Assembly (NCBI GenBank): GCA_032622095.1
Contig: CP136064.1
Location: forward strand, 620,001-684,000
Direction: 5' to 3'
Source of the DNA: Siphonodentalium dalli
Taxonomy: Eukaryota > Mollusca > Scaphopoda > Gadilida > Siphonodentaliidae
DNA length: 64,000 nucleotides
Shown: positions 1,344 through 44,200 of the stretch, piece after piece
Layout: every line of letters starts with the position of its first letter
How positions within the stretch are numbered: the first letter of the stretch is position 1
Position numbers and translations under genes: made by a program
The notes under the pieces: generated by a model
The model's database searches: none
What the model saw: only the letters and a program-made list of their open reading frames with translations
What the model was told of the DNA's origin: nothing

Positions 1344-1369
1344 GTATGTTTAAAGGAACAGATGTATCT

Positions 1370-3003: not shown

Positions 3004-3033
3004 CAACTTAAAGAGGTGTCTGATTTAGACTGG
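3004..3033 (+). other. Alternative linker cassette (GATTT form), example
   Basis: Phase 196-225 exists in two forms. The common one is TAAGGGGTATCTGCTATAGA; the other is AAAGAGGTGTCTGATTTAGA, with five differences in 20 bases. The GATTT form nearly always precedes a monomer with CTATTT, CTACTT or TTTATTT at phase 26-31. It appears in both domains, so it predates their separation. Confidence 0.8.
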
Positions 3034-3037
3034 TTCC

Positions 3038-17464: not shown

Positions 17465-18380
17465 ATGGTGGAGTACTGTTGGATATTTTCAATTTGGCGC
17501 ATGTTTCTCCCTACCGCGCCATGTCAAATCTGGCCATATCCGAATCGGGTTGTCATTTACAATGACTACAGAAAATAAATATCTTCATGTTGGAATGCAA
17601 ATGTATGTTTAAAGGAACAGATGTATCTCAACTTAAAGGGACATAAGTAACACAGTCACCAACTTTAAGGGGTATCTGCTATAGACTGGTTCCATGGTGG
17701 AGTACGGTTGGATATTTTCTATTTGGCGCATGTTTCTCCATACCGTGCCATGTCAAATCTGGCCATATCCGAATCGGGTTGTCATTTACAATGACTACAG
17801 AAAATAAATATCTTCATGTTGGAATGCAAATGTATGTTTAAAGAAACAGATGTATCTCAACTTAAAGGAACATAAGTAACACAGTCACCAACTTTAAGGG
17901 GTATCTGCTATAGACTGGTTCCATGGTGGAGTACTGTTGGATATTTTCAATTTGGCGCATGTTTCTCCCTACCGCGCCATGTCAAATCTGGCCATATCCG
18001 AATCGGGTTGTCATTTACAATGACTACAGAAAATAAATATCTTCATGTTGGAATGCAAATGTATGTTTAAAGGAACAGATGTATCTCAACTTAAAGGGAC
18101 ATAAGTAACACAGTCACCAACTTTAAGGGGTATCTGCTATAGACTGGTTCCATGGTGGAGTACGGTTGGATATTTTCAATTTGGCGCATGTTTTTCCATA
18201 CCGCGCCATGTCAAATCTGGCCATATCCGAATCGGGTTGTCATTTACAATGACTACAGAAAATAAATATCTTCATGTTGGAAAGCAAATGTATGTTTAAA
18301 GGAACAGATGTATCTCAACTTAAAGGGACATAAGTAACACAGTCACCAACTTAAAGGGGTATCTGCTATAGACTGGTTCC
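17465..18380 (+). repeat. Four-monomer insert: alternating TGTTGG/CCCT monomers
   Basis: The order is TGTTGG/CCCT (17465), CGTGCC with AAAGAAACAG (17694), TGTTGG/CCCT (17923) and TTTTTCC/AAGCAAAT (18152). The pairing of CGTGCC with AAAGAAACAG at 17694 combines the left side of the 2580/4641 type with the right side of the 2122/12427 type, so it is probably another hybrid. Confidence 0.75.
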
Positions 18381-19067
18381 ATGGTGGAGTACGGTTGGAT
18401 ATTTTCAATTTGGCGCATGTTTCTCCATACCGCGCCATGTCAAATCTGGCCATATCCGAATCGGGTTGTCATTTACAATGACTGCAGAAAATATATATCT
18501 TCATGTTGGAATGCAAATGTATGTTTAAAGGAACAGATGTATCTCAACTTAAAGGGACATAAGTAACACAGTCACCAACTTAAAGGGGTATCTGCTATAG
18601 ACTGGTTCCATGGTGGAGTACGGTTGGATATTTTCAATTTGGCGCATGTTTCTCCATACCGCGCCATGTCAAATCTGGCCATATCCGAATCGGGTTGTCA
18701 TTTACAATGACTGCAGAAAATATATATCTTCATGTTGGAATGCAAATGTATGTTTAAAGGAACAGATGTATCTCAACTTAAAGGGACATAAGTAACACAG
18801 TCACCAACTTAAAGAGGTGTCTGATTTAGAATGGTTCCATGGTGGAGTACGGTTGGATATTTTCTACTTGGCGCATGTTTCTCCATACCGCGCCATGTCA
18901 AATCTGGCCATATCCGAATCGGGTTGTCATTTACAATGACTGCAGAAAATTTATATCTTCATGGTGGAATGCAAATGTATGTTTAAAGGAACAGATGTAT
19001 CTCAACTTAAAGGGACATAAGTAACACCGTCACCAACTTTAAGGGGTATCTGCTATAGACTGGTTCC
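18381..19067 (+). repeat. Three-monomer segment matching 5099-5785
   Basis: Two CTGCAG/TATATAT monomers are followed by a CTACTT/AATTTAT monomer, the same order as at 5099-5785, 21358-22044 and 24106-24792. Here it runs directly into the TGTTGG/GCGTC/GTGTGT type. The ATGAAAAT monomer is skipped, so the right edge is another recombination seam. Confidence 0.82.
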
Positions 19068-20899
19068 ATGGTGGAGTACTGTTGGATATTTTCAATTTGG
19101 CGCATGTTTCTCCCTACCGCGTCATGTCAAATCTGGCCATATTCGAATCGGGTTGTCATTTACAATGACTACAGAAAATAAATATCTTCATGTTGGAATG
19201 CAAATGTGTGTTTAAAGAAACAGATGTATCTCAACTTAAAGGGACATAAGTAACACAGTCACCAACTTTAAGGGGTATCTGCTATAGACTGGTTCCATGG
19301 TGGAGTACGGTTGGATATTTTCAATTTGGCGCTTGTTTCTCCATACCGCGCCATGTCAAATCTGGCCATATCCGAATCGGGTTGTCATTTACAATGACTG
19401 CAGAAAATATATATCTTCATGTTGGAATGCAAATGTATGTTTAAAGGAACAGATGTATCTCAACTTAAAGGGACATAAGTAACACAGTCACCAACTTTAA
19501 GGGGTATCTGCTATAGACTGGTTCCATGGTGGAGTACGGTTGGATATTTTCAATTTGGCGCATGTTTCTCCATACCGCGCCATGTCAAATCTGGCCATAT
19601 CCGAATCGGGTTGTCATTTACAATGACTGCAGAAAATATATATCTTCATGTTGGAATGCAAATGTATGTTTAAAGGAACAGATGTATCTCAACTTAAAGG
19701 AACATAAGTAACACCGTCACCAACTTTAAGGGGTATCTGCTATAGACTGGTTACATGGTGGAGTACGGTTGGATATTTTCAATTTTGCGCATGTTTCTCC
19801 ATACCGCGCCATGTCAAATCTGGCCATATCCGAATCGGGTTGTCATTTACAATGACTACAGAAAATAAATATCTTCATGTTGGAATGCAAATGTATGTTT
19901 AAAGGAACAGATGTATCTCAACTTAAAGGAACATAAGTAACACAGTCACCAACTTAAAGAGGTGTCTGATTTAGACTGGTTCCATGGTGGAGTACGGTTG
20001 GATATTTTCTATTTGGCGCATGTTTCTCCATACCGCGCCATGTCAAATCTGGCCATATCCGAATCGGGTTGTCATTTACAATGACTACAGAAAATAAATA
20101 TCTTCATGTTGGAATGCAAATGTATGTTTAAAGGAACAGATGTATCTCAACTTAAAGGGACATAAGTAACACAGTTACCAACTTTAAGGGGTATCTGCTA
20201 TAGACTGGTTCCATGGTGGAGTACGGTTGGATATTTTCTATTTGGCGCATGTTTCTCCATACCGCGCCATGTCAAATCTGGCCATATCCGAATCGGGTTG
20301 TCATTTACAATGACTACAGAAAATAAATATCTTCATGTTGGAATGCAAATGTATGTTTAAAGAAACAGATGTATCTCAACTTAAAGGGACATAAGTAACA
20401 CAGTCACCAACTTTAAGGGGTATCTGCTATAGACTGGTTCCATGGTGGAGTACTGTTGGATATTTTCAATTTGGCGCATGTTTCTCCCTACCGCGCCATG
20501 TCAAATCTGGCCATATCCGAATCGGGTTGTCATTTACAATGACTACAGAAAATAAATATCTTCATGTTGGAATGCAAATGTATGTTTAAAGGAACAGATG
20601 TATCTCAACTTAAAGGGACATAAGTAACACAGTCACCAACTTTAAGGGGTATCTGCTATAGACTGGTTCCATGGTGGAGTACGGTTGGATATTTTCAATT
20701 TGGCGCATGTTTTTCCATACCGCGCCATGTCAAATCTGGCCATATCCGAATCGGGTTGTCATTTACAATGACTACAGAAAATAAATATCTTCATGTTGGA
20801 AAGCAAATGTATGTTTAAAGGAACAGATGTATCTCAACTTAAAGGGACATAAGTAACACAGTCACCAACTTAAAGGGGTATCTGCTATAGACTGGTTCC
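19068..20899 (+). repeat. 8-monomer segment repeating 15633-17464
   Basis: The offset is 3435 bp. The shared CATATTCGAA (19068 and 15633 only) and AAAGGAACAT followed by ACACCG (19526 and 16091 only) show that these two segments are closer to each other than to the 15-mer copies at 5328 and 8763. Confidence 0.86.
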
Positions 20900-22502
20900 A
20901 TGGTGGAGTACTGTTGGATATTTTCAATTTGGCGCATGTTTCTCCATACCGCGCCATGTCAAATCTGGCCATATCCGAATCGGGTTGTCATTTACAATGA
21001 CTACAGAAAATAAATATCTTCATGTTGGAATGCAAATGTATGTTTAAAGGAACAGATGTATCTCAACTTAAAGGGACATAAGTAACACAGTCACCAACTT
21101 TATGGGGTATCTGCTATAGACTGGTTACATGGTGGAGTACGGTTGGATATTTTCTATTTGGCGCATGTTTTTCCATACCGCGCCATGTCAAATCTGGCCA
21201 TATCCGAATCGGGTTGTCATTTACAATGACTACAGAAAATAAATATCTTCATGTTGGAAAGCAAATGTATGTTTAAAGGAACAGATGTATCTCAACTTAA
21301 AGGGACATAAGTAACACAGTCACCAACTTAAAGGGGTATCTGCTATAGACTGGTTCCATGGTGAAGTACGGTTGGATATTTTCAATTTGGCGCATGTTTC
21401 TCCATACCGCGCCATGTCAAATCTGGCCATATCCGAATCGGGTTGTCATTTACAATGACTGCAGAAAATATATATCTTCATGTTGGAATGCAAATGTATG
21501 TTTAAAGGAACAGATGTATCTCAACTTAAAGGGACATAAGTAACACAGTCACCAACTTAAAGGGGTATCTGCTATAGACTGGTTCCATGGTGGAGTACGG
21601 TTGGATATTTTCAATATGGCGCATGTTTCTCCATACCGCGCCATGTCAAATCTGGCCATATCCGAATCGGGTTGTCATTTACAATGACTGCAGAAAATAT
21701 ATATCTTCATGTTGGAATGCAAATGTATGTTTAAAGGAACAGATGTATCTCAACTTAAAGGGACATAAGTAACACAGTCACCAACTTAAAGAGGTGTCTG
21801 ATTTAGAATGGTTCCATGGTGGAGTACGGTTGGATATTTTCTACTTGGCGCATGTTTCTCCATACCGCGCCATGTCAAATCTGGCCATATCCGAATCGGG
21901 TTGTCATTTACAATGACTGCAGAAAATTTATATCTTCATGGTGGAATGCAAATGTATGTTTAAAGGAACAGATGTATCTCAACTTAAAGGGACATAAGTA
22001 ACACAGTCACCAACTTTAAGGGTTATCTGCTATAGACTGGTTCCATGGTGGAGTACTGTTGGATATTTTCAATTTGGCGCATGTTTCTCCATACCGCGCC
22101 ATGTCAAATCTGGCCATATCCGAATCGGGTTGTCATTTACAATGACTGCAGAAAATATATATCTTCATGGTGGAATGAAAATGTATGTTTAAAGGAACAG
22201 ATGTATCTCAACTTAAAGGGACATAAGTAACACCGTCACCAACTTTAAGGGGTATCTGCTATAGACTGGTTCCATGGTGGAGTACTGTTGGATATTTTCA
22301 ATTTGGCGCATGTTTCTCGCTACCGCGTCATGTCAAATCTGGCCATATCCGAATCGGGTTGTCATTTACAATGACTACAGAAAATAAATATCTTCATGTT
22401 GGAATGCAAATGTATGTTTAAAGAAACAGATGTATCTCAACTTAAAGGGACATAAGTAATACAGTCACCAACTTTAAGGGGTATCTGCTATAGACTGGTT
22501 AC
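19755..22502 (+). repeat. Domain A 12-monomer HOR, copy 1 (2748 bp)
   Basis: Twelve monomers recur at an offset of 2748 bp. Markers include the TTAC/TTTGCGC opener, TTTTTCC/AAGCAAAT monomers (20671, 21129), a CTTTATGGGG linker before 21129, GTGAAG (21358), CTACTT/AATTTAT (21816), ATGAAAAT (22045) and the rare TCTCGCT (22274). It overlaps the end of the segment copied from 15633-17464, so the two duplications were nested in time. Confidence 0.88.
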
Positions 22503-25250
22503 ATGGTGGAGTACGGTTGGATATTTTCAATTTTGCGCATGTTTCTCCATACCGCGCCATGTCAAATCTGGCCATATCCGAATCGGGTTGTCATTTACAA
22601 TGACTACAGAAAATAAATATCTTCATGTTGGAATGCAAATGTATGTTTAAAGGAACAGATGTATCTCAACTTAAAGGAACATAAGTAACACAGTCACCAA
22701 CTTAAAGAGGTGTCTGATTTAGACTGGTTCCATGGTGGAGTACGGTTGGATATTTTCTATTTGGCGCATGTTTCTCCATACCGCGCCATGTCAAATCTGG
22801 CCATATCCGAATCGGGTTGTCATTTACAATGACTACAGAAAATAAATATCTTCATGTTGGAATGCAAATGTATGTTTAAAGGAACAGATGTATCTCAACT
22901 TAAAGGGACATAAGTAACACAGTCACCAACTTTAAGGGGTATCTGCTATAGACTGGTTCCATGGTGGAGTACGGTTGGATATTTTCTATTTGGCGCATGT
23001 TTCTCCATACCGCGCCATGTCAAATCTGGCCATATCCGAATCGGGTTGTCATTTACAATGACTGCAGAAAATAAATATCTTCATGTTGGAATGCAAATGT
23101 ATGTTTAAAGAAACAGATGTATCTCAACTTAAAGGGACATAAGTAACACAGTCACCAACTTTAAGGGGTATCTGCTATAGACTGGTTCCATGGTGGAGTA
23201 CTGTTGGATATTTTCAATTTGGCGCATGTTTCTCCCTACCGCGCCATGTCAAATCTGGCCATATCCGAATCGGGTTGTCATTTACAATGACTACAGAAAA
23301 TAAATATCTTCATGTTGGAATGCAAATGTATGTTTAAAGGAACAGATGTATCTCAACTTAAAGGGACATAAGTAACACAGTCACCAACTTTAAGGGGTAT
23401 CTGCTATAGACTGGTTCCATGGTGGAGTACGGTTGGATATTTTCAATTTGGCGCATGTTTTTCCATACCGCGCCATGTCAAATCTGGCCATATCCGAATC
23501 GGGTTGTCATTTACAATGACTACAGAAAATAAATATCTTCATGTTGGAAAGCAAATGTATGTTTAAAGGAACAGATGTATCTCAACTTAAAGGGACATAA
23601 GTAACACAGTCACCAACTTAAAGGGGTATCTGCTATAGACTGGTTCCATGGTGGAGTACTGTTGGATATTTTCAATTTGGCGCATGTTTCTCCATACCGC
23701 GCCATGTCAAATCTGGCCATATCTGAATCGGGTTGTCATTTACAATGACTACAGAAAATAAATATCTTCATGTTGGAATGCAAATGTATGTTTAAAGGAA
23801 CAGATGTATCTCAACTTAAAGGGACATAAGTAACACAGTCACCAACTTTATGAGGTATCTGCTATAGACTGGTTACATGGTGGAGTACGGTTGGATATTT
23901 TCTATTTGGCGCATGTTTTTCCATACCGCGCCATGTCAAATCTGGCCATATCCGAATCGGGTTGTCATTTACAATGACTACAGAAAATAAATATCTTCAT
24001 GTTGGAAAGCAAATGTATGTTTAAAGGAACAGATGTATCTCAACTTAAAGGGACATAAGTAACACAGTCACCAACTTAAAGGGGTATCTGCTATAGACTG
24101 GTTCCATGGTGAAGTACGGTTGGATATTTTCAATTTGGCGCATGTTTCTCCATACCGCGCCATGTCAAATCTGGCCATATCCGAATCGGGTTGTCATTTA
24201 CAATGACTGCAGAAAATATATATCTTCATGTTGGAATGCAAATGTATGTTTAAAGGAACAGATGTATCTCAACTTAAAGGGACATAAGTAACACAGTCAC
24301 CAACTTAAAGGGGTATCTGCTATAGACTGGTTCCATGGTGGAGTACGGTTGGATATTTTCAATTTGGCGCATGTTTCTCCATACCGCGCCATGTCAAATC
24401 TGGCCATATCCGAATCGGGTTGTCATTTACAATGACTGCAGAAAATATATATCTTCATGTTGGAATGCAAATGTATGTTTAAAGGAACAGATGTATCTCA
24501 ACTTAAAGGGACATAAGTAACACAGTCACCAACTTAAAGAGGTGTCTGATTTAGAATGGTTCCATGGTGGAGTACGGTTGGATATTTTCTACTTGGCGCA
24601 TGTTTCTCCATACCGCGCCATGTCAAATCTGGCCATATCCGAATCGGGTTGTCATTTACAATGACTGCAGAAAATTTATATCTTCATGGTGGAATGCAAA
24701 TGTATGTTTAAAGGAACAGATGTATCTCAACTTAAAGGGACATAAGTAACACAGTCACCAACTTTAAGGGGTATCTGCTATAGACTGGTTCCATGGTGGA
24801 GTACTGTTGGATATTTTCAATTTGGCGCATGTTTCTCCATACCGCGCCATGTCAAATCTGGCCATATCCGAATCGGGTTGTCATTTACAATGACTGCAGA
24901 AAATATATATCTTCATGGTGGAATGAAAATGTATGTTTAAAGGAACAGATGTATCTCAACTTAAAGGGACATAAGTAACACCGTCACCAACTTTAAGGGG
25001 TATCTGCTATAGACTGGTTCCATGGTGGAGTACTGTTGGATATTTTCAATTTGGCGCATGTTTCTCGCTACCGCGTCATGTCAAATCTGGCCATATCCGA
25101 ATCGGGTTGTCATTTACAATGACTACAGAAAATAAATATCTTCATGTTGGAATGCAAATGTATGTTTAAAGAAACAGATGTATCTCAACTTAAAGGGACA
25201 TAAGTAACACAGTCACCAACTTTAAGGGGTATCTGCTATAGACTGGTTAC
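22503..25250 (+). repeat. Domain A 12-monomer HOR, copy 2 (2748 bp)
   Basis: The order matches copy 1, including the rare GTGAAG (24106) and TCTCGCT (25022). Differences I saw include CTGCAG for CTACAG in the monomer at 22961, ATCTGAATCG at about 23722, CTTTATGAGG before 23877, and CAGTCACC instead of CAGTTACC in the second monomer. Confidence 0.88.
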
Positions 25251-28200
25251 ATGGTGGAGTACGGTTGGATATTTTCAATTTTGCGCATGTTTCTCCATAC
25301 CGCGCCATGTCAAATCTGGCCATATCCGAATCGGGTTGTCATTTACAATGACTACAGAAAATAAATATCTTCATGTTGGAATGCAAATGTATGTTTAAAG
25401 GAACAGATGTATCTCAACTTAAAGGAACATAAGTAACACAGTCACCAACTTAAAGAGGTGTCTGATTTAGACTGGTTCCATGGTGGAGTACGGTTGGATA
25501 TTTTCTATTTGGCGCATGTTTCTCCATACCGCGCCATGTCAAATCTGGCCATATCCGAATCGGGTTGTCATTTACAATGACTACAGAAAATAAATATCTT
25601 CATGTTGGAATGCAAATGTATGTTTAAAGGAACAGATGTATCTCAACTTAAAGGGACATAAGTAACACAGTCACCAACTTTAAGGGGTATCTGCTATAGA
25701 CTGGTTCCATGGTGGAGTACGGTTGGATATTTTCTATTTGGCGCATGTTTCTCCATACCGCGCCATGTCAAATCTGGCCATATCCGAATCGGGTTGTCAT
25801 TTACAATGACTGCAGAAAATATATATCTTCATGTTGGAATGCAAATGTATGTTTAAAGGAACAGATGTATCTCAACTTAAAGGGACATAAGTAACACCGT
25901 CACCAACTTTAAGGGGTATCTGCTATAGACTGGTTACATGGTGGAGTACGGTTGGATATTTTCAATTTGGCGCATGTTTCTCCATACCGCGCCATGTCAA
26001 ATCTGGCCATATCCGAATCGGGTTGTCATTTACAATGACTGCAGAAAATATATATCTTCATGGTGGAATGCAAATGAATGTTTAAAGGAACAGATGTATC
26101 TCAACTTAAAGGGACATAAGTAACACCGTCACCAACTTGAAGGGGTATCTGCTATAGACTGGTTACATGGTGGAGTACGGTTGGATATTTTCAATTTTGC
26201 GCATGTTTCTCCATACCGCGCCATGTCAAATCTGGCCATATCCGAATCGGGTTGTCATTTACAATGACTGCAGAAAATAAATATCTTCATGTTGGAATGC
26301 AAATGTATGTTTAAAGGAATAGATGTATCTCAACTTAAAGGGACATAAGTAACACAGTCACCAACTTAAAGAGGTGTCTGATTTAGAATGGTTCCATGGT
26401 GGAGTACGGTTGGATATTTTCTACTTGGCGCATGTTTCTCCATACCGCGCCATGTCAAATCTGGCCATATCCGAATCGGGTTGTCATTTACAATGACTGC
26501 AGAAAATATATATCTTCATGGTGGAATGCAAATGTATGTTTAAAGGAACAGATGTATCTCAACTTAAACGGACATAAGTAACACAGTCACCAACTTTAAG
26601 GGGTATCTGCTATTGACTGGTTCCATGGTGGAGTACTGTTGGATATTTTCAATTTGGCGCATGTTTCTCCATACCGCGCCATGTCAAATCTGGCCATATC
26701 CGAATCGGGTTGTCATTTACAATGACTGCAGAAAATATATATCTTCATGGTGGAATGCAAATGTATGTTTAAAGGAACAGATGTATCTCAACTTAAAGGG
26801 ACATAAGTAACACCGTCACCAACTTTAAGGGGTATCTGCTATAGACTGGTTCCATGGTGGAGTACTGTTGGATATTTTCAATTTGGCGCATGTTTCTCCC
26901 TACCGCGTCATGTCAAATCTGGCCATATCCGAATCGGGTTGTCATTTACAATGACTACAGAAAATAAATATCTTCATGTTGGAATGCAAATGTGTGTTTA
27001 AAGAAACAGATGTATCTCAACTTAAAGGGACATAAGTAACACAGTCACCAACTTTAAGGGGTATCTGCTATAGACTGGTTCCATGGTGGAGTACGGTTGG
27101 ATATTTTCAATTTGGCGCTTGTTTCTCCATACCGCGCCATGTCAAATCTGGCCATATCCGAATCGGGTTGTCATTTACAATGACTGCAGAAAATATATAT
27201 CTTCATGTTGGAATGCAAATGTATGTTTAAAGGAACAGATGTATCTCAACTTAAAGGGACATAAGTAACACAGTCACCAACTTTAAGGGGTATCTGCTAT
27301 AGACTGGTTCCATGGTGGAGTACGGTTGGATATTTTCAATTTGGCGCATGTTTCTCCATACCGCGCCATGTCAAATCTGGCCATATCCGAATCGGGTTGT
27401 CATTTACAATGACTGCAGAAAATATATATCTTCATGTTGGAATGCAAATGTATGTTTAAAGGAACAGATGTATCTCAACTTAAAGGGACATAAGTAACAC
27501 CGTCACCAACTTTAAGGGGTATCTGCTATAGACTGGTTACATGGTGGAGTACGGTTGGATATTTTCAATTTTGCGCATGTTTCTCCATACCGCGCCATGT
27601 CAAATCTGGCCATATCCGAATCGGGTTGTCATTTACAATGACTACAGAAAATAAATATCTTCATGTTGGAATGCAAATGTATGTTTAAAGGAACAGATGT
27701 ATCTCAACTTAAAGGAACATAAGTAACACAGTCACCAACTTAAAGAGGTGTCTGATTTAGACTGGTTCCATGGTGGAGTACGGTTGGATATTTTCTATTT
27801 GGCGCATGTTTCTCCATACCGCGCCATGTCAAATCTGGCCATATCCGAATCGGGTTGTCATTTACAATGACTACAGAAAATAAATATCTTCATGTTGGAA
27901 TGCAAATGTATGTTTAAAGGAACAGATGTATCTCAACTTAAAGGGACATAAGTAACACAGTTACCAACTTTAAGGGGTATCTGCTATAGACTGGTTCCAT
28001 GGTGGAGTACGGTTGGATATTTTCTATTTGGCGCATGTTTCTCCATACCGCGCCATGTCAAATCTGGCCATATCCGAATCGGGTTGTCATTTACAATGAC
28101 TACAGAAAATAAATATCTTCATGTTGGAATGCAAATGTATGTTTAAAGAAACAGATGTATCTCAACTTAAAGGGACATAAGTAACACAGTCACCAACTTT

Positions 28201-28914
28201 AAGGGGTATCTGCTATAGACTGGTTCCATGGTGGAGTACTGTTGGATATTTTCAATTTGGCGCATGTTTCTCCCTACCGCGCCATGTCAAATCTGGCCAT
28301 ATCCGAATCGGGTTGTCATTTACAATGACTACAGAAAATAAATATCTTCATGTTGGAATGCAAATGTATGTTTAAAGGAACAGATGTATCTCAACTTAAA
28401 GGGACATAAGTAACACAGTCACCAACTTTAAGGGGTATCTGCTATAGACTGGTTCCATGGTGGAGTACGGTTGGATATTTTCAATTTGGCGCATGTTTTT
28501 CCATACCGCGCCATGTCAAATCTGGCCATATCCGAATCGGGTTGTCATTTACAATGACTACAGAAAATAAATATCTTCATGTTGGAAAGCAAATGTATGT
28601 TTAAAGGAACAGATGTATCTCAACTTAAAGGGACATAAGTAACACAGTCACCAACTTAAAGGGGTATCTGCTATAGACTGGTTCCATGGTGGAGTACGGT
28701 TGGATATTTTCCATTTGGCGCATGTTTCTCCATACCGCGCCATGTCAAATCTGGCCATATCCGAATCGGGTTGTCATTTACAATGACTACAGAAAATAAA
28801 TATCTTCATGTTGGAATGCAAATGTATGTTTAAAGGAACAGATGTATCTCAACTTAAAGGGACATAAGTAACACAGTCACCAACTTTAAGGGGTATCTGC
28901 TATAGACTGGTTCC
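25251..28914 (+). repeat. 16-monomer segment repeating 9679-13342
   Basis: The offset is 15572 bp (68 x 229). All sixteen monomer signatures match in order, from TTAC/TTTGCGC through AATGAATG/CTTGAAGG, GGAATAG, TTGACTGG-led, GTGTGT, CGCTTG, CAGTTACC and TTTTTCC to CCATTT. A private CTTAAACGG occurs in the monomer at 26396. This is the longest distant match I found within domain A. Confidence 0.86.
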
Positions 28915-29143
28915 ATGGTGGAGTACGGTTGGATATTTTCTATTTGGCGCATGTTTCTCCATACCGCGCCATGTCAAATCTGGCCATATCCGAATCGGGT
29001 TGTCATTTACAATGACTGCAGAAAATATATATCTTCATGGTGGAATGCAAATGAATGTTTAAAGGAACAGATGTATCTCAACTTAAAGGGACATAAGTAA
29101 CACCGTCACCAACTTGAAGGGGTATCTGCTATAGACTGGTTAC
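28915..29143 (+). repeat. Hybrid monomer at a 13-mer duplication seam
   Basis: The left half is the CTATTT type with GGTTCC lead, as at 13343. The right half is the 25938 type, with CATGGTGG, AATGAATG, ACACCG and the CTTGAAGG linker. The exchange fell between phase 28 and 126. It creates a 2977-bp (13-monomer) offset, after which 29144 and 29373 repeat 26167 and 26396. Confidence 0.87.
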
Positions 29144-29601
29144 ATGGTGGAGTACGGTTGGATATTTTCAATTTTGTGCATGTTTCTCCATACCGCGCCA
29201 TGTCAAATCTGGCCATATCCGAATCGGGTTGTCATTTACAATGACTGCAGAAAATAAATATCTTCATGTTGGAATGCAAATGTATGTTTAAAGGAATAGA
29301 TGTATCTCAACTTAAAGGGACATAAGTAACACAGTCACCAACTTAAAGAGGTGTCTGATTTAGAATGGTTCCATGGTGGAGTACGGTTGGATATTTTCTA
29401 CTTGGCGCATGTTTCTCCATACCGCGCCATGTCAAATCTGGCCATATCCGAATCGGGTTGTCATTTACAATGACTGCAGAAAATATATATCTTCATGGTG
29501 GAATGCAAATGTATGTTTAAAGGAACAGATGTATCTCAACTTAAAGGGACATAAGTAACACAGTCACCAACTTTAAGGGGTATCTGCTATTGACTGGTTC
29601 C
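29144..29601 (+). repeat. Last two domain A monomers
   Basis: These are the GGAATAG (29144) and CTACTT/TATATAT (29373) types, equal to 26167 and 26396. The first carries a private TTTTGTGCATG, a CpG-to-TpG change at phase 34-35. The second is followed by the TTGACTGG linker that opens the A/B junction monomer. Confidence 0.85.
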
Positions 29602-29812
29602 ATGGTGGAGTACTGTTGGATATTTCTCCATACCGCGCAATGTCAAATCTGGCCATATCCGAATCGGGTTGTCATTTACAATGTCTACAGAAAATAAATA
29701 TCTTCATGTTGGAATGCAAATGTATGTTTAAAGGAACAGATGTATCTCAACTTAAAGGGACATAAGTAACACCGTCACCAACTTTAAGGGGTATCTGCTA
29801 TAGACTGGTTCC
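29602..29812 (+). repeat. 211-bp junction monomer joining domains A and B
   Basis: The left part (TTGACTGG lead, GTACTG) belongs to the domain A type at 7618, 11053, 15404 and 26625. The right part (CGCAATG, GTCTACAG) belongs to domain B type a. Between them 18 bp are missing, from the TTT of GGATATTT to the TTT of CATGTTT, so the deletion ends in a 3-base direct repeat. It is the only 211-bp monomer in the window, and it coincides exactly with the change of monomer repertoire. Confidence 0.93.
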
Positions 29813-32800
29813 ATGGTGGAGTACTGTTGGATATTTTCAATTTGGCGCATGTTTCTCCCTACCGCGCCATGTAAAATCTGGCCATATCCGAATCGGGTTG
29901 TCATTTACAATGACTACAGAAAATAAATATCTTCATGTTGGAATGCAAATGTATGTTTACAGGAACAGATGTATCTCAACTTAAAGGGACATAAGTAACA
30001 CAGTCACCAACTTAAAGGGGTATCTGCTATAGACTGGTTCCATGGTGGAGTACGGTTGGATATTTTCAATTTGGCGCATGTTTCTCCATACCGCACCATG
30101 TCAAATCTGGCCATATCCGAATCGGGTTGTCATTTACAATGACTGCAGAAAATATATATCTTCATGGTGGCTGCAAATATATGTTTAAAGGAACAGATGT
30201 ATCTCAACTTAAAGGGACATAAGTAACACAGTCACCAACTTAAAGGGGTATCTGCTATAGACTGGTTCCATGGTGGAGTACGGTTGAATATTTTCAATTT
30301 GGCGCATGTTTCTCCATACCGCGCCATGTCAAATCTGGCCCTATCCGAATCGGGTTGTCATTTACAATGACTGCAGAAAATATATATCTTCATGGTGGAA
30401 TGCAAATGTATGTTTAAAGGAACAGATGTATCTCAACTTAAAGGGACATAAGTAACACAGTCACCAACTTTAAGGGGTATCTGCTATAGACTGGTTCCAT
30501 GGTGGAGTACGGTTGGATATTTTCAATTTGGAGCATGTTTCTCCATACCGCGCCATGTCAAATCTGGCCATATCCGAATCGGGTTGTCATTTACAATGAC
30601 TGCAGAAAATATATATCTTCATGTTGGAATGCAAATGAATGTTTAAAGGAACAGATGTATCTCAACTTAAAGGGACATAAGTAACACCGTCACCAACTTT
30701 AAGGGGTATCTGCTATAGACTGGTTACATGGTGGAGTACGGTTGGATATTTTCAATTTTGCGCATGTTTCTCCATACCGCGCCATGTAAAATCTGGCCAT
30801 ATCCGAATCGGGTTGTCATTTACAATGACTGCAGAAAATAAATATCTTCATGTTGGAATGCAAATGTATGTTTAAAGGAACAGATGTATCTCAACTTAAA
30901 GGGACATAAGTAACACAGTCACCAACTTAAAGAGGTGTCTGATTTAGACTGGTTCCATGGTGGAGTACGGTTGGATATTTTTTATTTGGCGCATGTTTCT
31001 CCATACCGCGCCATGTCAAATCTGGCCATATCCGAATCGGGTTGTCATTTACAATGACTACAGAAAATAAATATCTTCATGTTGGAATGCAAATGTATGT
31101 TTAGAGGAACAGATGTATCTCAACTTAAAGGGACATAAGTAACACAGTCACCAACTTTAAGGGGTATCTGCTATAGACTGGTTCCATGGTGGAGTACGGT
31201 TGGATATTTACTATTTGGCGCATGTTTCTCCATACCGCGCCATGTCAAATCTGGCCATATCCGAATCGGGTTGTCATTTACAATGACTACAGAAAATATA
31301 TATCTTCATGTTGGAATGCAAATGTATGTTTAAAGGAACAGATGTATCTCAACTTAAAGGAACATAAGTAACACCGTCACCAACTTTAAGGGGTATCTGC
31401 TAAGACTGGTTCCATGGTGGAGTACGGTTGGATATTTTCAATTTGGAGCATGTTTCTCCATACCGCGCCATGTCAAATCTGGCCATATCCGAATCGGGTT
31501 GTCATTTACAATGACTACAGAAAATAAATATCTTCATGTTGGAATGCAAATGTATGTTTAGAGGAACAGATGTATCTCAACTTAAAGGGACATAAGTAAC
31601 ACAGTCACCAACTTTAAGGGGTATCTGCTATAGACTGGTTCCATGGTGGAGTACGGTTGGATATTTACTATTTGGCGCATGTTTCTCCATACCGCGCCAT
31701 GTCAAATCTGGCCATATCCGAATCGGGTTGTCATTTACAATGACTACAGAAAATAAATATCTTCATGTTGGAATGCCAATGTATGTTTAAAGGAACAGAT
31801 GTATCTCAACTTAAAGGGACATAAGTAACACCGTCACCAACTTTAAGGGGTATCTGCTATAGACTGGTTCCATGGTGGAGTAATGTTGCATATTTTCAAT
31901 TTGGCGCATGTTTTTCCATACCGCGCCATGTCAAATCTGGCCATATCCGAATCGGGTTGTCATTTACAATGACTACAGAAAATAAATATCTTCATGTTGG
32001 AATGCAAATGTATGTTTAAAGGAACAGATGTATCTCAACTTAAAGGGACATAAGTAACACAGTCACCAACTTAAAGGGGTATCTGCTATAGACTGGTTCC
32101 ATGGTGGAGTACGGTTGGATATTTTCAATTTGGCGCATGTTTCTCCATACCGCGCCATGTCAAATCTGGCCATATCCGAATCGGGTTGTCATTTACAATG
32201 ACTGCAGAAAATATATATCTTCATGGTGGCTGCAAATATATGTTTAAAGGAACAGATGTATCTCAACTTAAAGGGACATAAGTAACACAGTCACCAACTT
32301 AAAGGGGTATCTGCTATAGACTGGTTCCATGGTGGAGTACGGTTGAATATTTTCAATTTGGCGCATGTTTCTCCATACCGCGCCATGTCAAATCTGGCCC
32401 TATCCGAATCGGGTTGTCATTTACAATGACTGCAGAAAATATATATCTTCATGGTGGAATGCAAATGTATGTTTAAAGGAACAGATGTATCTCAACTTAA
32501 AGGGACATAAGTAACACAGTCACCAACTTTAAGGGGTATCTGCTATAGACTGGTTCCATGGTGGAGTACGGTTGGATATTTTCAATTTGGAGCATGTTTC
32601 TCCATACCGCGCCATGTCAAATCTGGCCATATCCGAATCGGGTTGTCATTTACAATGACTGCAGAAAATATATATCTTCATGTTGGAATGCAAATGAATG
32701 TTTAAAGGAACAGATGTATCTCAACTTAAAGGGACATAAGTAACACCGTCACCAACTTTAAGGGGTATCTGCTATAGACTGGTTACATGGTGGAGTACGG

Positions 32801-33702
32801 TTGGATATTTTCAATTTTGCGCATGTTTCTCCATACCGTGCCATGTAAAATCTGGCCATATCCGAATCGGGTTGTCATTTACAATGACTGCAGAAAATAA
32901 ATATCTTCATGTTGGAATGCAAATGTATGTTTAAAGGAACAGATGTATCTCAACTTAAAGGGACATAAGTAACACAGTCACCAACTTAAAGAGGTGTCTG
33001 ATTTAGACTGGTTCCATGGTGGAGTACGGTTGGATATTTTCTATTTGGCGCATGTTTCTCCATACCGCGCCATGTCAAATCTGGCCATATCCGAATCGGG
33101 TTGTCATTTACAATGACTACAGAAAATAAATATCTTCATGTTGGAATGCAAATGTATGTTTAAAGGAACAGATGTATCTCAACTTAAAGGGACATAAGTA
33201 ACACAGTCACCAACTTAAAGGGGTATCTGCTATAGACTGGTTCCATGGTGGAGTACGGTTGGATATTTTCAATTTGGCGCATGTTTCTCCATACAGCGCC
33301 ATGTCAAATCTGGCCCTATCCGAATCGGGTTGTCATTTACAATGACTGCAGAAAATAAATATCTTCATGTTGGAATGCAAATGTATGTTTAAAGGAACAG
33401 ATGTATCTCAACTTAAAGGGACATAAGTAACACAGTCACCAACTTAAAGAGGTGTCTGATTTAGACTGGTTACAAGGTGGAATACGGTTGGATATTTTCT
33501 ATTTGGCACATGTTTCTCCATACCGCGCCATGTCAAATCTGGCCATATCCGAATCGGGTTGTCATTTACAATGACTACAGAAAATAAATATCTTCATGTT
33601 GGAATGCAAATGTATGTTTAAAGGAACAGATGTATCTCAACTTAAAGGGACATAAGTAACACAGTCACCAACTTTAAGGGGTATCTGCTATAGACTGGTT
33701 CC
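29602..33702 (+). repeat. Domain B 18-mer HOR, first copy (4101 bp)
   Basis: The order is a b c d e f g h i j k c d e f l m n. The first monomer is the 211-bp A/B hybrid, so this copy is 18 bp shorter than the full 4119 bp. The tetramer c d e f occurs twice. The first set is marked by CGCACC in c and CGCGCC in f, the second by CGCGCC in c and CGTGCC in f. Monomers g-h and i-j are also related pairs. The HOR itself therefore grew by internal duplication. Confidence 0.9.
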
Positions 33703-36700
33703 ATGGTGGAGTACGGTTGGATATTTTCTATTTGGCGCATGTTTCTCCATACCGCGCAATGTCAAATCTGGCCATATCCGAATCGGGTTGTCATTTACAA
33801 TGTCTACAGAAAATAAATATCTTCATGTTGGAATGCAAATGTATGTTTAAAGGAACAGATGTATCTCAACTTAAAGGGACATAAGTAACACCGTCACCAA
33901 CTTTAAGGGGTATCTGCTATAGACTGGTTCCATGGTGGAGTACTGTTGGATATTTTCAATTTGGCGCATGTTTCTCCCTACCGCGCCATGTAAAATCTGG
34001 CCATATCCGAATCGGGTTGTCATTTACAATGACTACAGAAAATAAATATCTTCATGTTGGAATGCAAATGTATGTTTACAGGAACAGATGTATCTCAACT
34101 TAAAGGGACATAAGTAACACAGTCACCAACTTAAAGGGGTATCTGCTATAGACTGGTTCCATGGTGGAGTACGGTTGGATATTTTCAATTTGGCGCATGT
34201 TTCTCCATACCGCGCCATGTCAAATCTGGCCATATCCGAATCGGGTTGTCATTTACAATGACTGCAGAAAATATATATCTTCATGGTGGCTGCAAATATA
34301 TGTTTAAAGGAACAGATGTATCTCAACTTAAAGGGACATAAGTAACACAGTCACCAACTTAAAGGGGTATCTGCTATAGACTGGTTCCATGGTGGAGTAC
34401 GGTTGAATATTTTCAATTTGGCGCATGTTTCTCCATACCGCGCCATGTCAAATCTGGCCCTATCCGAATCGGGTTGTCATTTACAATGACTGCAGAAAAT
34501 ATATATCTTCATGGTGGAATGCAAATGTATGTTTAAAGGAACAGATGTATCTCAACTTAAAGGGACATAAGTAACACAGTCACCAACTTTAAGGGGTATC
34601 TGCTATAGACTGGTTCCATGGTGGAGTACGGTTGGATATTTTCAATTTGGAGCATGTTTCTCCATACCGCGCCATGTCAAATCTGGCCATATCCGAATCG
34701 GGTTGTCATTTACAATGTCTACAGAAAATAAATATCTTCATGTTGGAATGCAAATGTATGTTTAAAGGAACAGATGTATCTCAACTTAAAGGGACATAAG
34801 TAACACAGTCACCAACTTTAAGGGGTATCTGCTATAGACTGGTTCCATGGTGGAGTACGGTTGGATATTTTCTATTTGGCGCATGTTTCTCCATACCGCG
34901 CAATGTCAAATCTGGCCATATCCGAATCGGGTTGTCATTTACAATGTCTACAGAAAATAAATATCTTCATGTTGGAATGCAAATGTATGTTTAAAGGAAC
35001 AGATGTATCTCAACTTAAAGGGACATAAGTAACACCGTCACCAACTTTAAGGGGTATCTGCTATAGACTGGTTCCATGGTGGAGTACTGTTGGATATTTT
35101 CAATTTGGCGCATGTTTCTCCCTACCGCGCCATGTAAAATCTGGCCATATCCGAATCGGGTTGTCATTTACAATGACTACAGAAAATAAATATCTTCATG
35201 TTGGAATGCAAATGTATGTTTACAGGAACAGATGTATCTCAACTTAAAGGGACATAAGTAACACAGTCACCAACTTAAAGGGGTATCTGCTATAGACTGG
35301 TTCCATGGTGGAGTACGGTTGGATATTTTCAATTTGGCGCATGTTTCTCCATACCGCACCATGTCAAATCTGGCCATATCCGAATCGGGTTGTCATTTAC
35401 AATGACTGCAGAAAATATATATCTTCATGGTGGCTGCAAATATATGTTTAAAGGAACAGATGTATCTCAACTTAAAGGGACATAAGTAACACAGTCACCA
35501 ACTTAAAGGGGTATCTGCTATAGACTGGTTCCATGGTGGAGTACGGTTGAATATTTTCAATTTGGCGCATGTTTCTCCATACCGCGCCATGTCAAATCTG
35601 GCCCTATCCGAATCGGGTTGTCATTTACAATGACTGCAGAAAATATATATCTTCATGGTGGAATGCAAATGTATGTTTAAAGGAACAGATGTATCTCAAC
35701 TTAAAGGGACATAAGTAACACAGTCACCAACTTAAAGAGGTGTCTGATTTAGACTGGTTCCATGGTGGAGTACGGTTGGATATTTTTTATTTGGCGCATG
35801 TTTCTCCATACCGCGCCATGTCAAATCTGGCCATATCCGAATCGGGTTGTCATTTACAATGACTACAGAAAATAAATATCTTCATGTTGGAATGCAAATG
35901 TATGTTTAGAGGAACAGATGTATCTCAACTTAAAGGGACATAAGTAACACAGTCACCAACTTTAAGGGGTATCTGCTATAGACTGGTTCCATGGTGGAGT
36001 ACGGTTGGATATTTACTATTTGGCGCATGTTTCTCCATACCGCGCCATGTCAAATCTGGCCATATCCGAATCGGGTTGTCATTTACAATGACTACAGAAA
36101 ATATATATCTTCATGTTGGAATGCAAATGTATGTTTACAGGAACAGATGTATCTCAACTTAAAGGGACATAAGTAACACAGTCACCAACTTAAAGGGGTA
36201 TCTGCTATAGACTGGTTCCATGGTGGAGTACGGTTGGATATTTTCAATTTGGCGCATGTTTCTCCATACCGCACCATGTCAAATCTGGCCATATCCGAAT
36301 CGGGTTGTCATTTACAATGACTGCAGAAAATATATATCTTCATGGTGGCTGCAAATATATGTTTAAAGGAACAGATGTATCTCAACTTAAAGGGACATAA
36401 GTAACACAGTCACCAACTTAAAGGGGTATCTGCTATAGACTGGTTCCATGGTGGAGTACGGTTGAATATTTTCAATTTGGCGCATGTTTCTCCATACCGC
36501 GCCATGTCAAATCTGGCCCTATCCGAATCGGGTTGTCATTTACAATGACTGCAGAAAATATATATCTTCATGGTGGAATGCAAATGTATGTTTAAAGGAA
36601 CAGATGTATCTCAACTTAAAGGGACATAAGTAACACAGTCACCAACTTTAAGGGGTATCTGCTATAGACTGGTTCCATGGTGGAGTACGGTTGGATATTT

Positions 36701-39700
36701 TCAATTTGGAGCATGTTTCTCCATACCGCGCCATGTCAAATCTGGCCATATCCGAATCGGGTTGTCATTTACAATGACTGCAGAAAATATATATCTTCAT
36801 GTTGGAATGCAAATGAATGTTTAAAGGAACAGATGTATCTCAACTTAAAGGGACATAAGTAACACCGTCACCAACTTTAAGGGGTATCTGCTATAGACTG
36901 GTTACATGGTGGAGTACGGTTGGATATTTTCAATTTTGCGCATGTTTCTCCATACCGCGCCATGTAAAATCTGGCCATATCCGAATCGGGTTGTCATTTA
37001 CAATGACTGCAGAAAATAAATATCTTCATGTTGGAATGCAAATGTATGTTTAAAGGAACAGATGTATCTCAACTTAAAGGGACATAAGTAACACAGTCAC
37101 CAACTTAAAGAGGTGTCTGATTTAGACTGGTTCCATGGTGGAGTACGGTTGGATATTTTTTATTTGGCGCATGTTTCTCCATACCGCGCCATGTCAAATC
37201 TGGCCATATCCGAATCGGGTTGTCATTTACAATGACTACAGAAAATAAATATCTTCATGTTGGAATGCAAATGTATGTTTAGAGGAACAGATGTATCTCA
37301 ACTTAAAGGGACATAAGTAACACAGTCACCAACTTTAAGGGGTATCTGCTATAGACTGGTTCCATGGTGGAGTACGGTTGGATATTTACTATTTGGCGCA
37401 TGTTTCTCCATACCGCGCCATGTCAAATCTGGCCATATCCGAATCGGGTTGTCATTTACAATGACTACAGAAAATATATATCTTCATGTTGGAATGCAAA
37501 TGTATGTTTAAAGGAACAGATGTATCTCAACTTAAAGGGACATAAGTAACACCGTCACCAACTTTAAGGGGTATCTGCTAAGACTGGTTCCATGGTGGAG
37601 TACGGTTGGATATTTTCAATTTGGCGCATGTTTCTCCATACCGCGCCATGTCAAATCTGGCCATATCCGAATCGGGTTGTCATTTACAATGACTACAGAA
37701 AATAAATATCTTCATGTTGGAATGCAAATGTATGTTTAGAGGAACAGATGTATCTCAACTTAAAGGGACATAAGTAACACAGTCACCAACTTTAAGGGGT
37801 ATCTGCTATAGACTGGTTCCATGGTGGAGTACGGTTGGATATTTACTATTTGGCGCATGTTTCTCCATACCGCGCCATGTCAAATCTGGCCATATCCGAA
37901 TCGGGTTGTCATTTACAATGACTACAGAAAATAAATATCTTCATGTTGGAATGCCAATGTATGTTTAAAGGAACAGATGTATCTCAACTTAAAGGGACAT
38001 AAGTAACACCGTCACCAACTTTAAGGGGTATCTGCTATAGACTGGTTCCATGGTGGAGTAATGTTGCATATTTTCAATTTGGCGCATGTTTTTCCATACC
38101 GCGCCATGTCAAATCTGGCCATATCCGAATCGGGTTGTCATTTACAATGACTACAGAAAATAAATATCTTCATGTTGGAATGCAAATGTATGTTTAAAGG
38201 AACAGATGTATCTCAACTTAAAGGGACATAAGTAACACAGTCACCAACTTAAAGGGGTATCTGCTATAGACTGGTTCCATGGTGGAGTACGGTTGGATAT
38301 TTTCAATTTGGCGCATGTTTCTCCATACCGCGCCATGTCAAATCTGGCCATATCCGAATCGGGTTGTCATTTACAATGACTGCAGAAAATATATATCTTC
38401 ATGGTGGCTGCAAATATATGTTTAAAGGAACAGATGTATCTCAACTTAAAGGGACATAAGTAACACAGTCACCAACTTAAAGGGGTATCTGCTATAGACT
38501 GGTTCCATGGTGGAGTACGGTTGAATATTTTCAATTTGGCGCATGTTTCTCCATACCGCGCCATGTCAAATCTGGCCCTATCCGAATCGGGTTGTCATTT
38601 ACAATGACTGCAGAAAATATATATCTTCATGGTGGAATGCAAATGTATGTTTAAAGGAACAGATGTATCTCAACTTAAAGGGACATAAGTAACACAGTCA
38701 CCAACTTTAAGGGGTATCTGCTATAGACTGGTTCCATGGTGGAGTACGGTTGGATATTTTCAATTTGGAGCATGTTTCTCCATACCGCGCCATGTCAAAT
38801 CTGGCCATATCCGAATCGGGTTGTCATTTACAATGACTGCAGAAAATATATATCTTCATGTTGGAATGCAAATGAATGTTTAAAGGAACAGATGTATCTC
38901 AACTTAAAGGGACATAAGTAACACCGTCACCAACTTTAAGGGGTATCTGCTATAGACTGGTTACATGGTGGAGTACGGTTGGATATTTTCAATTTTGCGC
39001 ATGTTTCTCCATACCGTGCCATGTAAAATCTGGCCATATCCGAATCGGGTTGTCATTTACAATGACTGCAGAAAATAAATATCTTCATGTTGGAATGCAA
39101 ATGTATGTTTAAAGGAACAGATGTATCTCAACTTAAAGGGACATAAGTAACACAGTCACCAACTTAAAGAGGTGTCTGATTTAGACTGGTTCCATGGTGG
39201 AGTACGGTTGGATATTTTCTATTTGGCGCATGTTTCTCCATACCGCGCCATGTCAAATCTGGCCATATCCGAATCGGGTTGTCATTTACAATGACTACAG
39301 AAAATAAATATCTTCATGTTGGAATGCAAATGTATGTTTAAAGGAACAGATGTATCTCAACTTAAAGGGACATAAGTAACACAGTCACCAACTTAAAGGG
39401 GTATCTGCTATAGACTGGTTCCATGGTGGAGTACGGTTGGATATTTTCAATTTGGCGCATGTTTCTCCATACAGCGCCATGTCAAATCTGGCCCTATCCG
39501 AATCGGGTTGTCATTTACAATGACTGCAGAAAATAAATATCTTCATGTTGGAATGCAAATGTATGTTTAAAGGAACAGATGTATCTCAACTTAAAGGGAC
39601 ATAAGTAACACAGTCACCAACTTAAAGAGGTGTCTGATTTAGACTGGTTACAAGGTGGAATACGGTTGGATATTTTCTATTTGGCACATGTTTCTCCATA

Positions 39701-39880
39701 CCGCGCCATGTCAAATCTGGCCATATCCGAATCGGGTTGTCATTTACAATGACTACAGAAAATAAATATCTTCATGTTGGAATGCAAATGTATGTTTAAA
39801 GGAACAGATGTATCTCAACTTAAAGGGACATAAGTAACACAGTCACCAACTTTAAGGGGTATCTGCTATAGACTGGTTCC
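33703..39880 (+). repeat. Domain B composite block, 27 monomers (6178 bp)
   Basis: The order is a b c d e/a, a b c d g h/b, c d e f g h i j k c d e f l m n. Two hybrid monomers mark its seams: 34618 (e joined to a) and 35991 (h joined to b). From 36220 on the block follows the 18-mer order exactly. It reads as an 18-mer with two partial units inserted on its left by unequal exchange. Confidence 0.88.
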
Positions 39881-41253
39881 ATGGTGGAGTACGGTTGGAT
39901 ATTTTCTATTTGGCGCATGTTTCTCCATACCGCGCAATGTCAAATCTGGCCATATCCGAATCGGGTTGTCATTTACAATGTCTACAGAAAATAAATATCT
40001 TCATGTTGGAATGCAAATGTATGTTTAAAGGAACAGATGTATCTCAACTTAAAGGGACATAAGTAACACCGTCACCAACTTTAAGGGGTATCTGCTATAG
40101 ACTGGTTCCATGGTGGAGTACTGTTGGATATTTTCAATTTGGCGCATGTTTCTCCCTACCGCGCCATGTAAAATCTGGCCATATCCGAATCGGGTTGTCA
40201 TTTACAATGACTACAGAAAATAAATATCTTCATGTTGGAATGCAAATGTATGTTTACAGGAACAGATGTATCTCAACTTAAAGGGACATAAGTAACACAG
40301 TCACCAACTTAAAGGGGTATCTGCTATAGACTGGTTCCATGGTGGAGTACGGTTGGATATTTTCAATTTGGCGCATGTTTCTCCATACCGCGCCATGTCA
40401 AATCTGGCCATATCCGAATCGGGTTGTCATTTACAATGACTGCAGAAAATATATATCTTCATGGTGGCTGCAAATATATGTTTAAAGGAACAGATGTATC
40501 TCAACTTAAAGGGACATAAGTAACACAGTCACCAACTTAAAGGGGTATCTGCTATAGACTGGTTCCATGGTGGAGTACGGTTGAATATTTTCAATTTGGC
40601 GCATGTTTCTCCATACCGCGCCATGTCAAATCTGGCCCTATCCGAATCGGGTTGTCATTTACAATGACTGCAGAAAATATATATCTTCATGGTGGAATGC
40701 AAATGTATGTTTAAAGGAACAGATGTATCTCAACTTAAAGGGACATAAGTAACACAGTCACCAACTTTAAGGGGTATCTGCTATAGACTGGTTCCATGGT
40801 GGAGTACGGTTGGATATTTTCAATTTGGAGCATGTTTCTCCATACCGCGCCATGTCAAATCTGGCCATATCCGAATCGGGTTGTCATTTACAATGACTGC
40901 AGAAAATATATATCTTCATGTTGGAATGCAAATGAATGTTTAAAGGAACAGATGTATCTCAACTTAAAGGGACATAAGTAACACCGTCACCAACTTTAAG
41001 GGGTATCTGCTATAGACTGGTTACATGGTGGAGTACGGTTGGATATTTTCAATTTTGCGCATGTTTCTCCATACCGCGCCATGTAAAATCTGGCCATATC
41101 CGAATCGGGTTGTCATTTACAATGACTGCAGAAAATAAATATCTTCATGTTGGAATGCAAATGTATGTTTAAAGGAACAGATGTATCTCAACTTAAAGGG
41201 ACATAAGTAACACAGTCACCAACTTTAAGGGGTATCTGCTATAGACTGGTTCC
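39881..41253 (+). repeat. Domain B 6-mer (1373 bp)
   Basis: The order is a b c d e f, returning directly to a. It is the 18-mer with everything after the first f removed. All six monomers are intact, so the exchange between f and a left no obvious hybrid. Confidence 0.88.
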
Positions 41254-44200
41254 ATGGTGGAGTACGGTTGGATATTTTCTATTTGGCGCATGTTTCTCCA
41301 TACCGCGCAATGTCAAATCTGGCCATATCCGAATCGGGTTGTCATTTACAATGTCTACAGAAAATAAATATCTTCATGTTGGAATGCAAATGTATGTTTA
41401 AAGGAACAGATGTATCTCAACTTAAAGGGACATAAGTAACACCGTCACCAACTTTAAGGGGTATCTGCTATAGACTGGTTCCATGGTGGAGTACTGTTGG
41501 ATATTTTCAATTTGGCGCATGTTTCTCCCTACCGCGCCATGTAAAATCTGGCCATATCCGAATCGGGTTGTCATTTACAATGACTACAGAAAATAAATAT
41601 CTTCATGTTGGAATGCAAATGTATGTTTACAGGAACAGATGTATCTCAACTTAAAGGGACATAAGTAACACAGTCACCAACTTAAAGGGGTATCTGCTAT
41701 AGACTGGTTCCATGGTGGAGTACGGTTGGATATTTTCAATTTGGCGCATGTTTCTCCATACCGCACCATGTCAAATCTGGCCATATCCGAATCGGGTTGT
41801 CATTTACAATGACTGCAGCAAATATATATCTTCATGGTGGCTGCAAATATATGTTTAAAGGAACAGATGTATCTCAACTTAAAGGGACATAAGTAACACA
41901 GTCACCAACTTAAAGGGGTATCTGCTATAGACTGGTTCCATGGTGGAGTACGGTTGAATATTTTCAATTTGGCGCATGTTTCTCCATACCGCGCCATGTC
42001 AAATCTGGCCCTATCCGAATCGGGTTGTCATTTACAATGACTGCAGAAAATATATATCTTCATGGTGGAATGCAAATGTATGTTTAAAGGAACAGATGTA
42101 TCTCAACTTAAAGGGACATAAGTAACACAGTCACCAACTTTAAGGGGTATCTGCTATAGACTGGTTCCATGGTGGAGTACGGTTGGATATTTTCAATTTG
42201 GATCATGTTTCTCCATACCGCGCCATGTCAAATCTGGCCATATCCGAATCGGGTTGTCATTTACAATGACTGCAGAAAATATATATCTTCATGTTGGAAT
42301 GCAAATGAATGTTTAAAGGAACAGATGTATCTCAACTTAAAGGGACATAAGTAACACCGTCACCAACTTTAAGGGGTATCTGCTATAGACTGGTTACATG
42401 GTGGAGTACGGTTGGATATTTTCAATTTTGCGCATGTTTCTCCATACCGCGCCATGTAAAATCTGGCCATATCCGAATCGGGTTGTCATTTACAATGACT
42501 GCAGAAAATAAATATCTTCATGTTGGAATGCAAATGTATGTTTAAAGGAACAGATGTATCTCAACTTAAAGGGACATAAGTAACACAGTCACCAACTTAA
42601 AGAGGTGTCTGATTTAGACTGGTTCCATGGTGGAGTACGGTTGGATATTTTTTATTTGGCGCATGTTTCTCCATACCGCGCCATGTCAAATCTGGCCATA
42701 TCCGAATCGGGTTGTCATTTACAATGACTACAGAAAATAAATATCTTCATGTTGGAATGCAAATGTATGTTTAGAGGAACAGATGTATCTCAACTTAAAG
42801 GGACATAAGTAACACAGTCACCAACTTTAAGGGGTATCTGCTATAGACTGGTTCCATGGTGGAGTACGGTTGGATATTTACTATTTGGCGCATGTTTCTC
42901 CATACCGCGCCATGTCAAATCTGGCCATATCCGAATCGGGTTGTCATTTACAATGACTACAGAAAATATATATCTTCATGTTGGAATGCAAATGTATGTT
43001 TAAAGGAACAGATGTATCTCAACTTAAAGGGACATAAGTAACACAGTCACCAACTTTAAGGGGTATCTGCTAAGACTGGTTCCATGGTGGAGTACGGTTG
43101 GATATTTTCAATTTGGCGCATGTTTCTCCATACCGCGCCATGTCAAATCTGGCCATATCCGAATCGGGTTGTCATTTACAATGACTACAGAAAATAAATA
43201 TCTTCATGTTGGAATGCAAATGTATGTTTAGAGGAACAGATGTATCTCAACTTAAAGGGACATAAGTAACACAGTCACCAACTTTAAGGGGTATCTGCTA
43301 TAGACTGGTTCCATGGTGGAGTACGGTTGGATATTTACTATTTGGCGCATGTTTCTCCATACCGCGCCATGTCAAATCTGGCCATATCCGAATCGGGTTG
43401 TCATTTACAATGACTACAGAAAATAAATATCTTCATGTTGGAATGCCAATGTATGTTTAAAGGAACAGATGTATCTCAACTTAAAGGGACATAAGTAACA
43501 CCGTCACCAACTTTAAGGGGTATCTGCTATAGACTGGTTCCATGGTGGAGTACTGTTGCATATTTTCAATTTGGCGCATGTTTTTCCATACCGCGCCATG
43601 TCAAATCTGGCCATATCCGAATCGGGTTGTCATTTACAATGACTACAGAAAATAAATATCTTCATGTTGGAATGCAAATGTATGTTTAAAGGAACAGATG
43701 TATCTCAACTTAAAGGGACATAAGTAACACAGTCACCAACTTAAAGGGGTATCTGCTATAGACTGGTTCCATGGTGGAGTACGGTTGGATATTTTCAATT
43801 TGGCGCATGTTTCTCCATACCGCGCCATGTCAAATCTGGCCATATCCGAATCGGGTTGTCATTTACAATGACTGCAGAAAATATATATCTTCATGGTGGC
43901 TGCAAATATATGTTTAAAGGAACAGATGTATCTCAACTTAAAGGGACATAAGTAACACAGTCACCAACTTAAAGGGGTATCTGCTATAGACTGGTTCCAT
44001 GGTGGAGTACGGTTGAATATTTTCAATTTGGCGCATGTTTCTCCATACCGCGCCATGTCAAATCTGGCCCTATCCGAATCGGGTTGTCATTTACAATGAC
44101 TGCAGAAAATATATATCTTCATGGTGGAATGCAAATGTATGTTTAAAGGAACAGATGTATCTCAACTTAAAGGGACATAAGTAACACAGTCACCAACTTT

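Follow-up and report, generated by a model that had tools for sequence, protein, structure and literature searches.

A probable repair joint at the exact border between two monomer repertoires of a 229-bp satellite array in Siphonodentalium dalli

In the window analysed here (64,000 nucleotides, C4:620001-684000, from a genome of 2.227 Gb in nine contigs), two domains of a tandem satellite, A and B, meet inside a single shortened monomer. We read the meeting point, joint D, as a microhomology-type repair joint that connected a stretch of A to a stretch of B in a single event, and give this reading a probability of about 0.7. Joint D is a real but fairly ordinary rearrangement scar.

The 229-bp tandem array fills the window from base 29 to the window end. 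Cut in phase, it yields 279 monomers: 256 have 229 bp, 22 have 228 bp, and the junction monomer is the only one with 211 bp. From the junction monomer 18 bp, consensus columns 181-198, are absent, with TTT at the joint. This bears out the 18-bp deletion described in the earlier note, whose unit at 29602-29812 is the same monomer cut in another phase. A 21-mer laid over joint D occurs at one place in the 2.23-Gb genome, with up to one mismatch allowed. The inverted repeats of the junction monomer number four and are all short, one of them being perfect over 7 nt. The coordinates of these and other features are collected in the table.

Table. Positions of the joint, its parents, the two domains and the marker blocks. 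Plain numbers are window positions; C4 positions are in kb.
Feature	Position	Strand	Remarks
Junction monomer	29443..29653	+	211 bp; lacks columns 181-198 of the 229-bp consensus; A type left, B type right
Joint D	29623..29625	+	TTT common to both parents; 3-bp microhomology
Joint-spanning 21-mer	29615..29635	+	Single genome place, at most 1 mismatch
Domain A, 229-bp satellite	29..29622	+	Monomer cutting, haplotype comparison, change-point test
Domain B	29626..64000	+	Continues to about C4:693.6 kb; thins from about C4:685 kb
Domain A monomer 32	7459..7687	+	Same as left part of junction monomer
Second domain A match to left part of junction monomer	10894-11122	+	Exact
Domain B monomer 151	34688..34916	+	Right-hand parent type; 848 bp exact rightward from joint
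Joint X, head-to-head strand switch	29..32	.	Left edge of domain A; one further copy at C4:11.43 kb
B marker places	C4:315-326, 473.7, 492.0, 650-673.5, 1055-1131 kb	+	Marker search
A marker, 100 of 189 places listed	C4:15-145, 179, 224-293, 479-483, 503-508, 526-528, 625-649, from 1475.7 kb on	+	
A marker, fetched 310.5 kb	C4:0.2-9.8, 474.1, 492.4, 579-616 kb	-	Marker search

The two domains carry different monomer repertoires. Two representative types differ at 7 of 229 positions, and no full-length haplotype is common to the 57 A types and the 49 B types. In a change-point test on the variable columns, the top repertoire change of the window falls exactly on the junction monomer with a gain of 236, a value reached in none of 500 shuffles of 15-monomer blocks (mean gain 57, maximum 147.8). 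Together with an exact A match on the left and an exact B match on the right, this upholds the exact border that the earlier note had drawn. The B block, about 44 kb long, fades out in register on its right side. Over its last ~9 kb, B types are mixed in register with monomers that are nearer to A types (1-3 differences) or to neither, which we read as a third repertoire, and the block ends in an in-register change at ~693.6 kb.

Two different parents meet at joint D, at a resolution limited by diagnostic columns 172 and 215. The left 180 bases of the junction monomer are an exact copy of domain A monomers 32 and 47, and the exact match to domain A runs leftward from the joint for 445 bp. The right 31 bases recur exactly in ten domain B monomers (e.g. 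those at 34688, 39722 and 45214), the first of these giving the best rightward exact match, 848 bp. The right part had been assigned to B type a; it corresponds instead to the B type that precedes type a, and the type-a monomer is the next one. A-specific bases end at column 172 and B-specific bases start at column 215, with the deleted columns between them. The combination of 172T with 215A occurs in the junction monomer only, one of the 1131 monomers parsed from C4:1-30 kb and 570-804 kb by a parser restricted to units of 205-244 bp, which passed over or misread eight units shortened by a 40-bp deletion. Those eight units also rule out the 211-bp unit as the sole length outlier of the array.

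The position of the joint relative to the repeat register bears on how it arose. In-register exchange, whether by unequal crossover or gene conversion, would leave the flanking monomers alike; joint D lies 18 bp out of homologous register, inside one monomer. The proposal of a non-register, end-joining type of junction stands, end joining being the best reading of such a joint. The process would have started with a break or a collapsed fork within an A stretch. Microhomology-mediated end joining, or alternatively a template switch in break-induced replication, would then have connected the broken end to a B stretch. Whatever lay between the two stretches would have been lost in the same event. 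The sequence of the joint fits end joining and template switching alike. That a single event was involved is favoured by the coincidence of deletion and repertoire change in the same monomer, columns 181-198 lying inside the switch interval of columns 172-215. Microhomology of 3 bp or more arises at a single joint by chance in about 5.5% of cases, so the 3 bp at joint D carry little weight alone and the case for the mechanism is made by the set of joints. Nine distinct joints, D among them, carry 19 bases of microhomology in total, where the null mean is 6.4 (P = 0.0008). Three of the nine (joints V and W and the 40-bp deletion) have zero microhomology by the consensus method, which counts against the reading.

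The set of joints comes from a scan for phase breaks that covered 310.5 kb of this array on C4. We found 20 phase breaks of at least 3 bp, of which 10 are distinct: seven kinds of strand inversion, joint D, a deletion of 3 bp, and the one of 40 bp, which has eight copies. The 18-bp deletion is the single instance of its kind in this sample. Smaller phase changes of 1-2 bp number 75, with 12 of them in the first 10 kb of C4. The statement that all other seams keep the 229-bp register thus holds for the window, except for the 22 monomers with 1-bp deletions, and fails for the rest of the array; nor do the data support an exceptional status of the joint within the array, as out-of-register joints recur along C4. 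Two compound inversion sites, at C4:11.43-13.47 and 618.69-620.03 kb, have identical joints X and Y, though not in the same order, which suggests that rearranged pieces were copied inside the array. The eight copies of the 40-bp deletion lie at C4:758.7-781.6 kb, with change-point borders at both ends that may be overstated because the parser misread the shortened units. A candidate foreign insert at C4:473.9-477.4 kb was rejected, as it proved to be the satellite in reverse orientation.

The satellite fills both long stretches of C4 that were read (1-30 kb and 570-804 kb, with pieces no more than 50 bases apart merged), and the contig starts inside it. Coverage is 99.75-100% in 14 of 18 2-kb samples taken between 60 kb and 3.0 Mb, and an extra sample at 2.20 Mb is likewise filled. 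The satellite is absent from the other four (2.05, 2.3, 2.6 and 3.0 Mb) and from a sample of the far end of the contig. The sampled points thus trace the array to 2.20 Mb or beyond, at one end of the 299-Mb contig C4. It is interrupted at 2.05 Mb, where C4:2050001-2052000 is non-satellite DNA, and the satellite is found again at 2.15 and 2.20 Mb. Related, more divergent copies are present, among the matches listed, at C3:288.37-288.65 and 301.20-301.25 Mb, with 91-97% identity to the consensus in the two C3 samples that hold satellite. Among the matches listed, which run no further than part of C4, satellite places lie on C3 and C4, and the 39 candidates scored, out of 818, in a DNA search also lie on C4 and C3 only. 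Two divergent C3 copies 1136 bp apart (C3:288602475 and C3:288603611) carry a 9-bp deletion at the site of the 18-bp one. The base 215A (CGCGCAATG) is rare on C4, in 18 of 1131 parsed monomers, and common among the C3 matches listed at 288.37-288.65 Mb, obtained with a query that itself carried 215A and so favoured such matches. The 215A B-type variant may go back to an old state common to C4 and C3. At the sampled end of C3, satellite and telomere repeat are both absent. On the reverse strand, TTAGGG repeats form a long run that covers at least C1:276277252-276277928; a TTAGGG pattern has 7367 matches, against 0 for TTTAGGG. Pfam RAG1 and mollusc haemocyanin domains drew no hit, and neither did their controls, so these negatives do not establish absence. 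A literature search, with candidates judged by title and abstract, matched no described 229-bp satellite.

The B marker has 38 places, each on the plus strand of C4. For the A marker there are 189 (160 plus, 29 minus), with the 100 listed all on C4. Rather than being separated by a single transition, A-marker and B-marker blocks alternate without a junction monomer, with A at 479-483, B at 492.0, inverted A at 492.4 and A again at 503-508 kb. At C4:491.0/491.2 kb, monomers resembling the third repertoire (nearer A types or neither) switch to B in register. The A marker is absent on either strand from C4:649.4-804 kb, so that the B block is not directly followed by a return to strict A. Free intermingling of A and B in places lacking the junction monomer, which the earlier note had named as an observation that would overturn it, is found in a loose sense only: monomers mix in register at the right of the B block, and blocks alternate along the contig.

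In the fetched DNA, A and B markers lie less than 1 kb apart at three places (C4:473.7/474.1, 492.0/492.4 and 649.4/650.2 kb), and at each of them an out-of-register joint separates the two markers, joint V in two cases and joint D in one. Joint V (C4:473.86 and 492.18 kb) each time follows a B-marker monomer and precedes an inverted A-marker monomer, and it has no microhomology. The occurrence of D and V at sharp A/B meetings is the basis for a further, doubtful suggestion, that exchange, and with it homogenisation, is blocked at out-of-register joints, with sharp borders only where such joints lie and blending where a border stayed in register. The two places of V are copies of one joint, leaving two of two independent joints, too few for a rule.

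What we attribute to one event could instead have been two, an in-register exchange that made an A/B hybrid monomer and a later 18-bp deletion by replication slippage between TTT tracts. We consider this history unlikely. TTT tracts do flank the deleted stretch, which contains one arm of a 6-bp inverted repeat (TGGCGC/GCGCCA in the consensus reading, with the 5-bp cores located), and other borders, such as those at C4:491.0/491.2 and 693.6 kb, are in register. Two C3 copies have a different deletion, of 9 bp, at this site, which may therefore be deletion-prone; the 18-bp deletion could then be a separate event. However, two rare events would have to fall in one monomer, with a deletion unique in 310.5 kb and a switch interval that spans 19% of a monomer. 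In addition, the undeleted hybrid with A on the left and B on the right, in its 186A or 186T form, has no exact match in the fetched 310.5 kb of the 2.2-Mb array. Against the single event, the 186A form has, genome-wide and among the matches listed (part of 558), at least one exact place, on C3.

Long satellite arrays are hard to assemble, and an assembler or a chimeric read might have fused A and B. The start of C4 within the array and the 12 of 75 small phase changes in its first 10 kb would fit such an error, which we nevertheless regard as improbable for joint D. Overlap errors in tandem repeats would normally be in register, and joint D is 18 bp out; among the 279 window monomers, 278 have a length of 229 or 228 bp, and the identity of joints X and Y 0.6 Mb apart makes that class of joint look real. 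Nor does a functional border, such as the edge of a kinetochore region or chromatin domain that keeps A and B apart, account well for the data. The sharp repertoire change speaks for it, as does an array that reaches 2.2 Mb or further at one end of a 299-Mb contig. The alternation of A and B marker blocks on C4 and the gradual change at the far edge of the B block speak against it, and we hold such a border to be very improbable. The CENP-B-box core, which we take to be TTCGNNNNANNCGGG, occurs 0 times on either strand of the 64 kb, and the single monomer folded, the neighbour at 29654-29882, gives no structural signal above shuffles (z 0.27). Many centromeric satellites have no CENP-B box, and its absence says little. 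The idea of a border between two parts of a centromere is not supported: with marker blocks that alternate, the evidence says that A and B are not two parts of one structure, none of the tests points to a centromere, and nothing shows joint D to be a functional centromere border.

Events similar to the one proposed for joint D have been described for maize centromere 10. There (PMC4806543), inversions, deletions and duplications arose by microhomology-mediated rearrangement, with 1-3 nt of identity at some retroelement deletions, one CentC monomer deleted and another carrying a 40-nt insertion. The CentC array resembles ours in its breaks in or beside satellite, short-identity repair, inversions and duplicated segments. 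It differs in that the events involve mostly centromeric retrotransposons in a known cenH3 region, whereas no transposon lies at joint D. A review (PMC8997354) discusses models of unequal exchange and break-induced replication as well as the microhomology-mediated repair in maize centromere 10. Junctions between satellite DNAs at Meloidogyne Box 1/Box 2 have been ascribed to illegitimate recombination (PMC3694981), as have Drosophila satellite junctions (Kuhn et al. 2009, as cited in the same paper). Like joint D, they are abrupt array switches at short shared motifs, but the satellites concerned are unrelated or strongly divergent, whereas A and B are variant forms of a single monomer. Primate alpha-satellite arrays (PMC11062924) also have blocks differing in structure (HOR blocks) and large inversions. 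These are known centromeres, and the likeness is one of blocks, the single-base anatomy of borders standing outside the comparison. Illegitimate recombination was inferred for rye subtelomeric repeats too (PMC4857426), a parallel we set aside as it has no bearing on single-base joints between variants of one satellite.

Joint D can be placed to three bases within a homogeneous array and forms a single-copy landmark in a satellite array that reaches at least 2.2 Mb. The set of joints could measure the share of error-prone repair versus in-register exchange. If out-of-register joints do act as barriers to homogenisation, the positions of repair scars would determine how the array is divided into domains.
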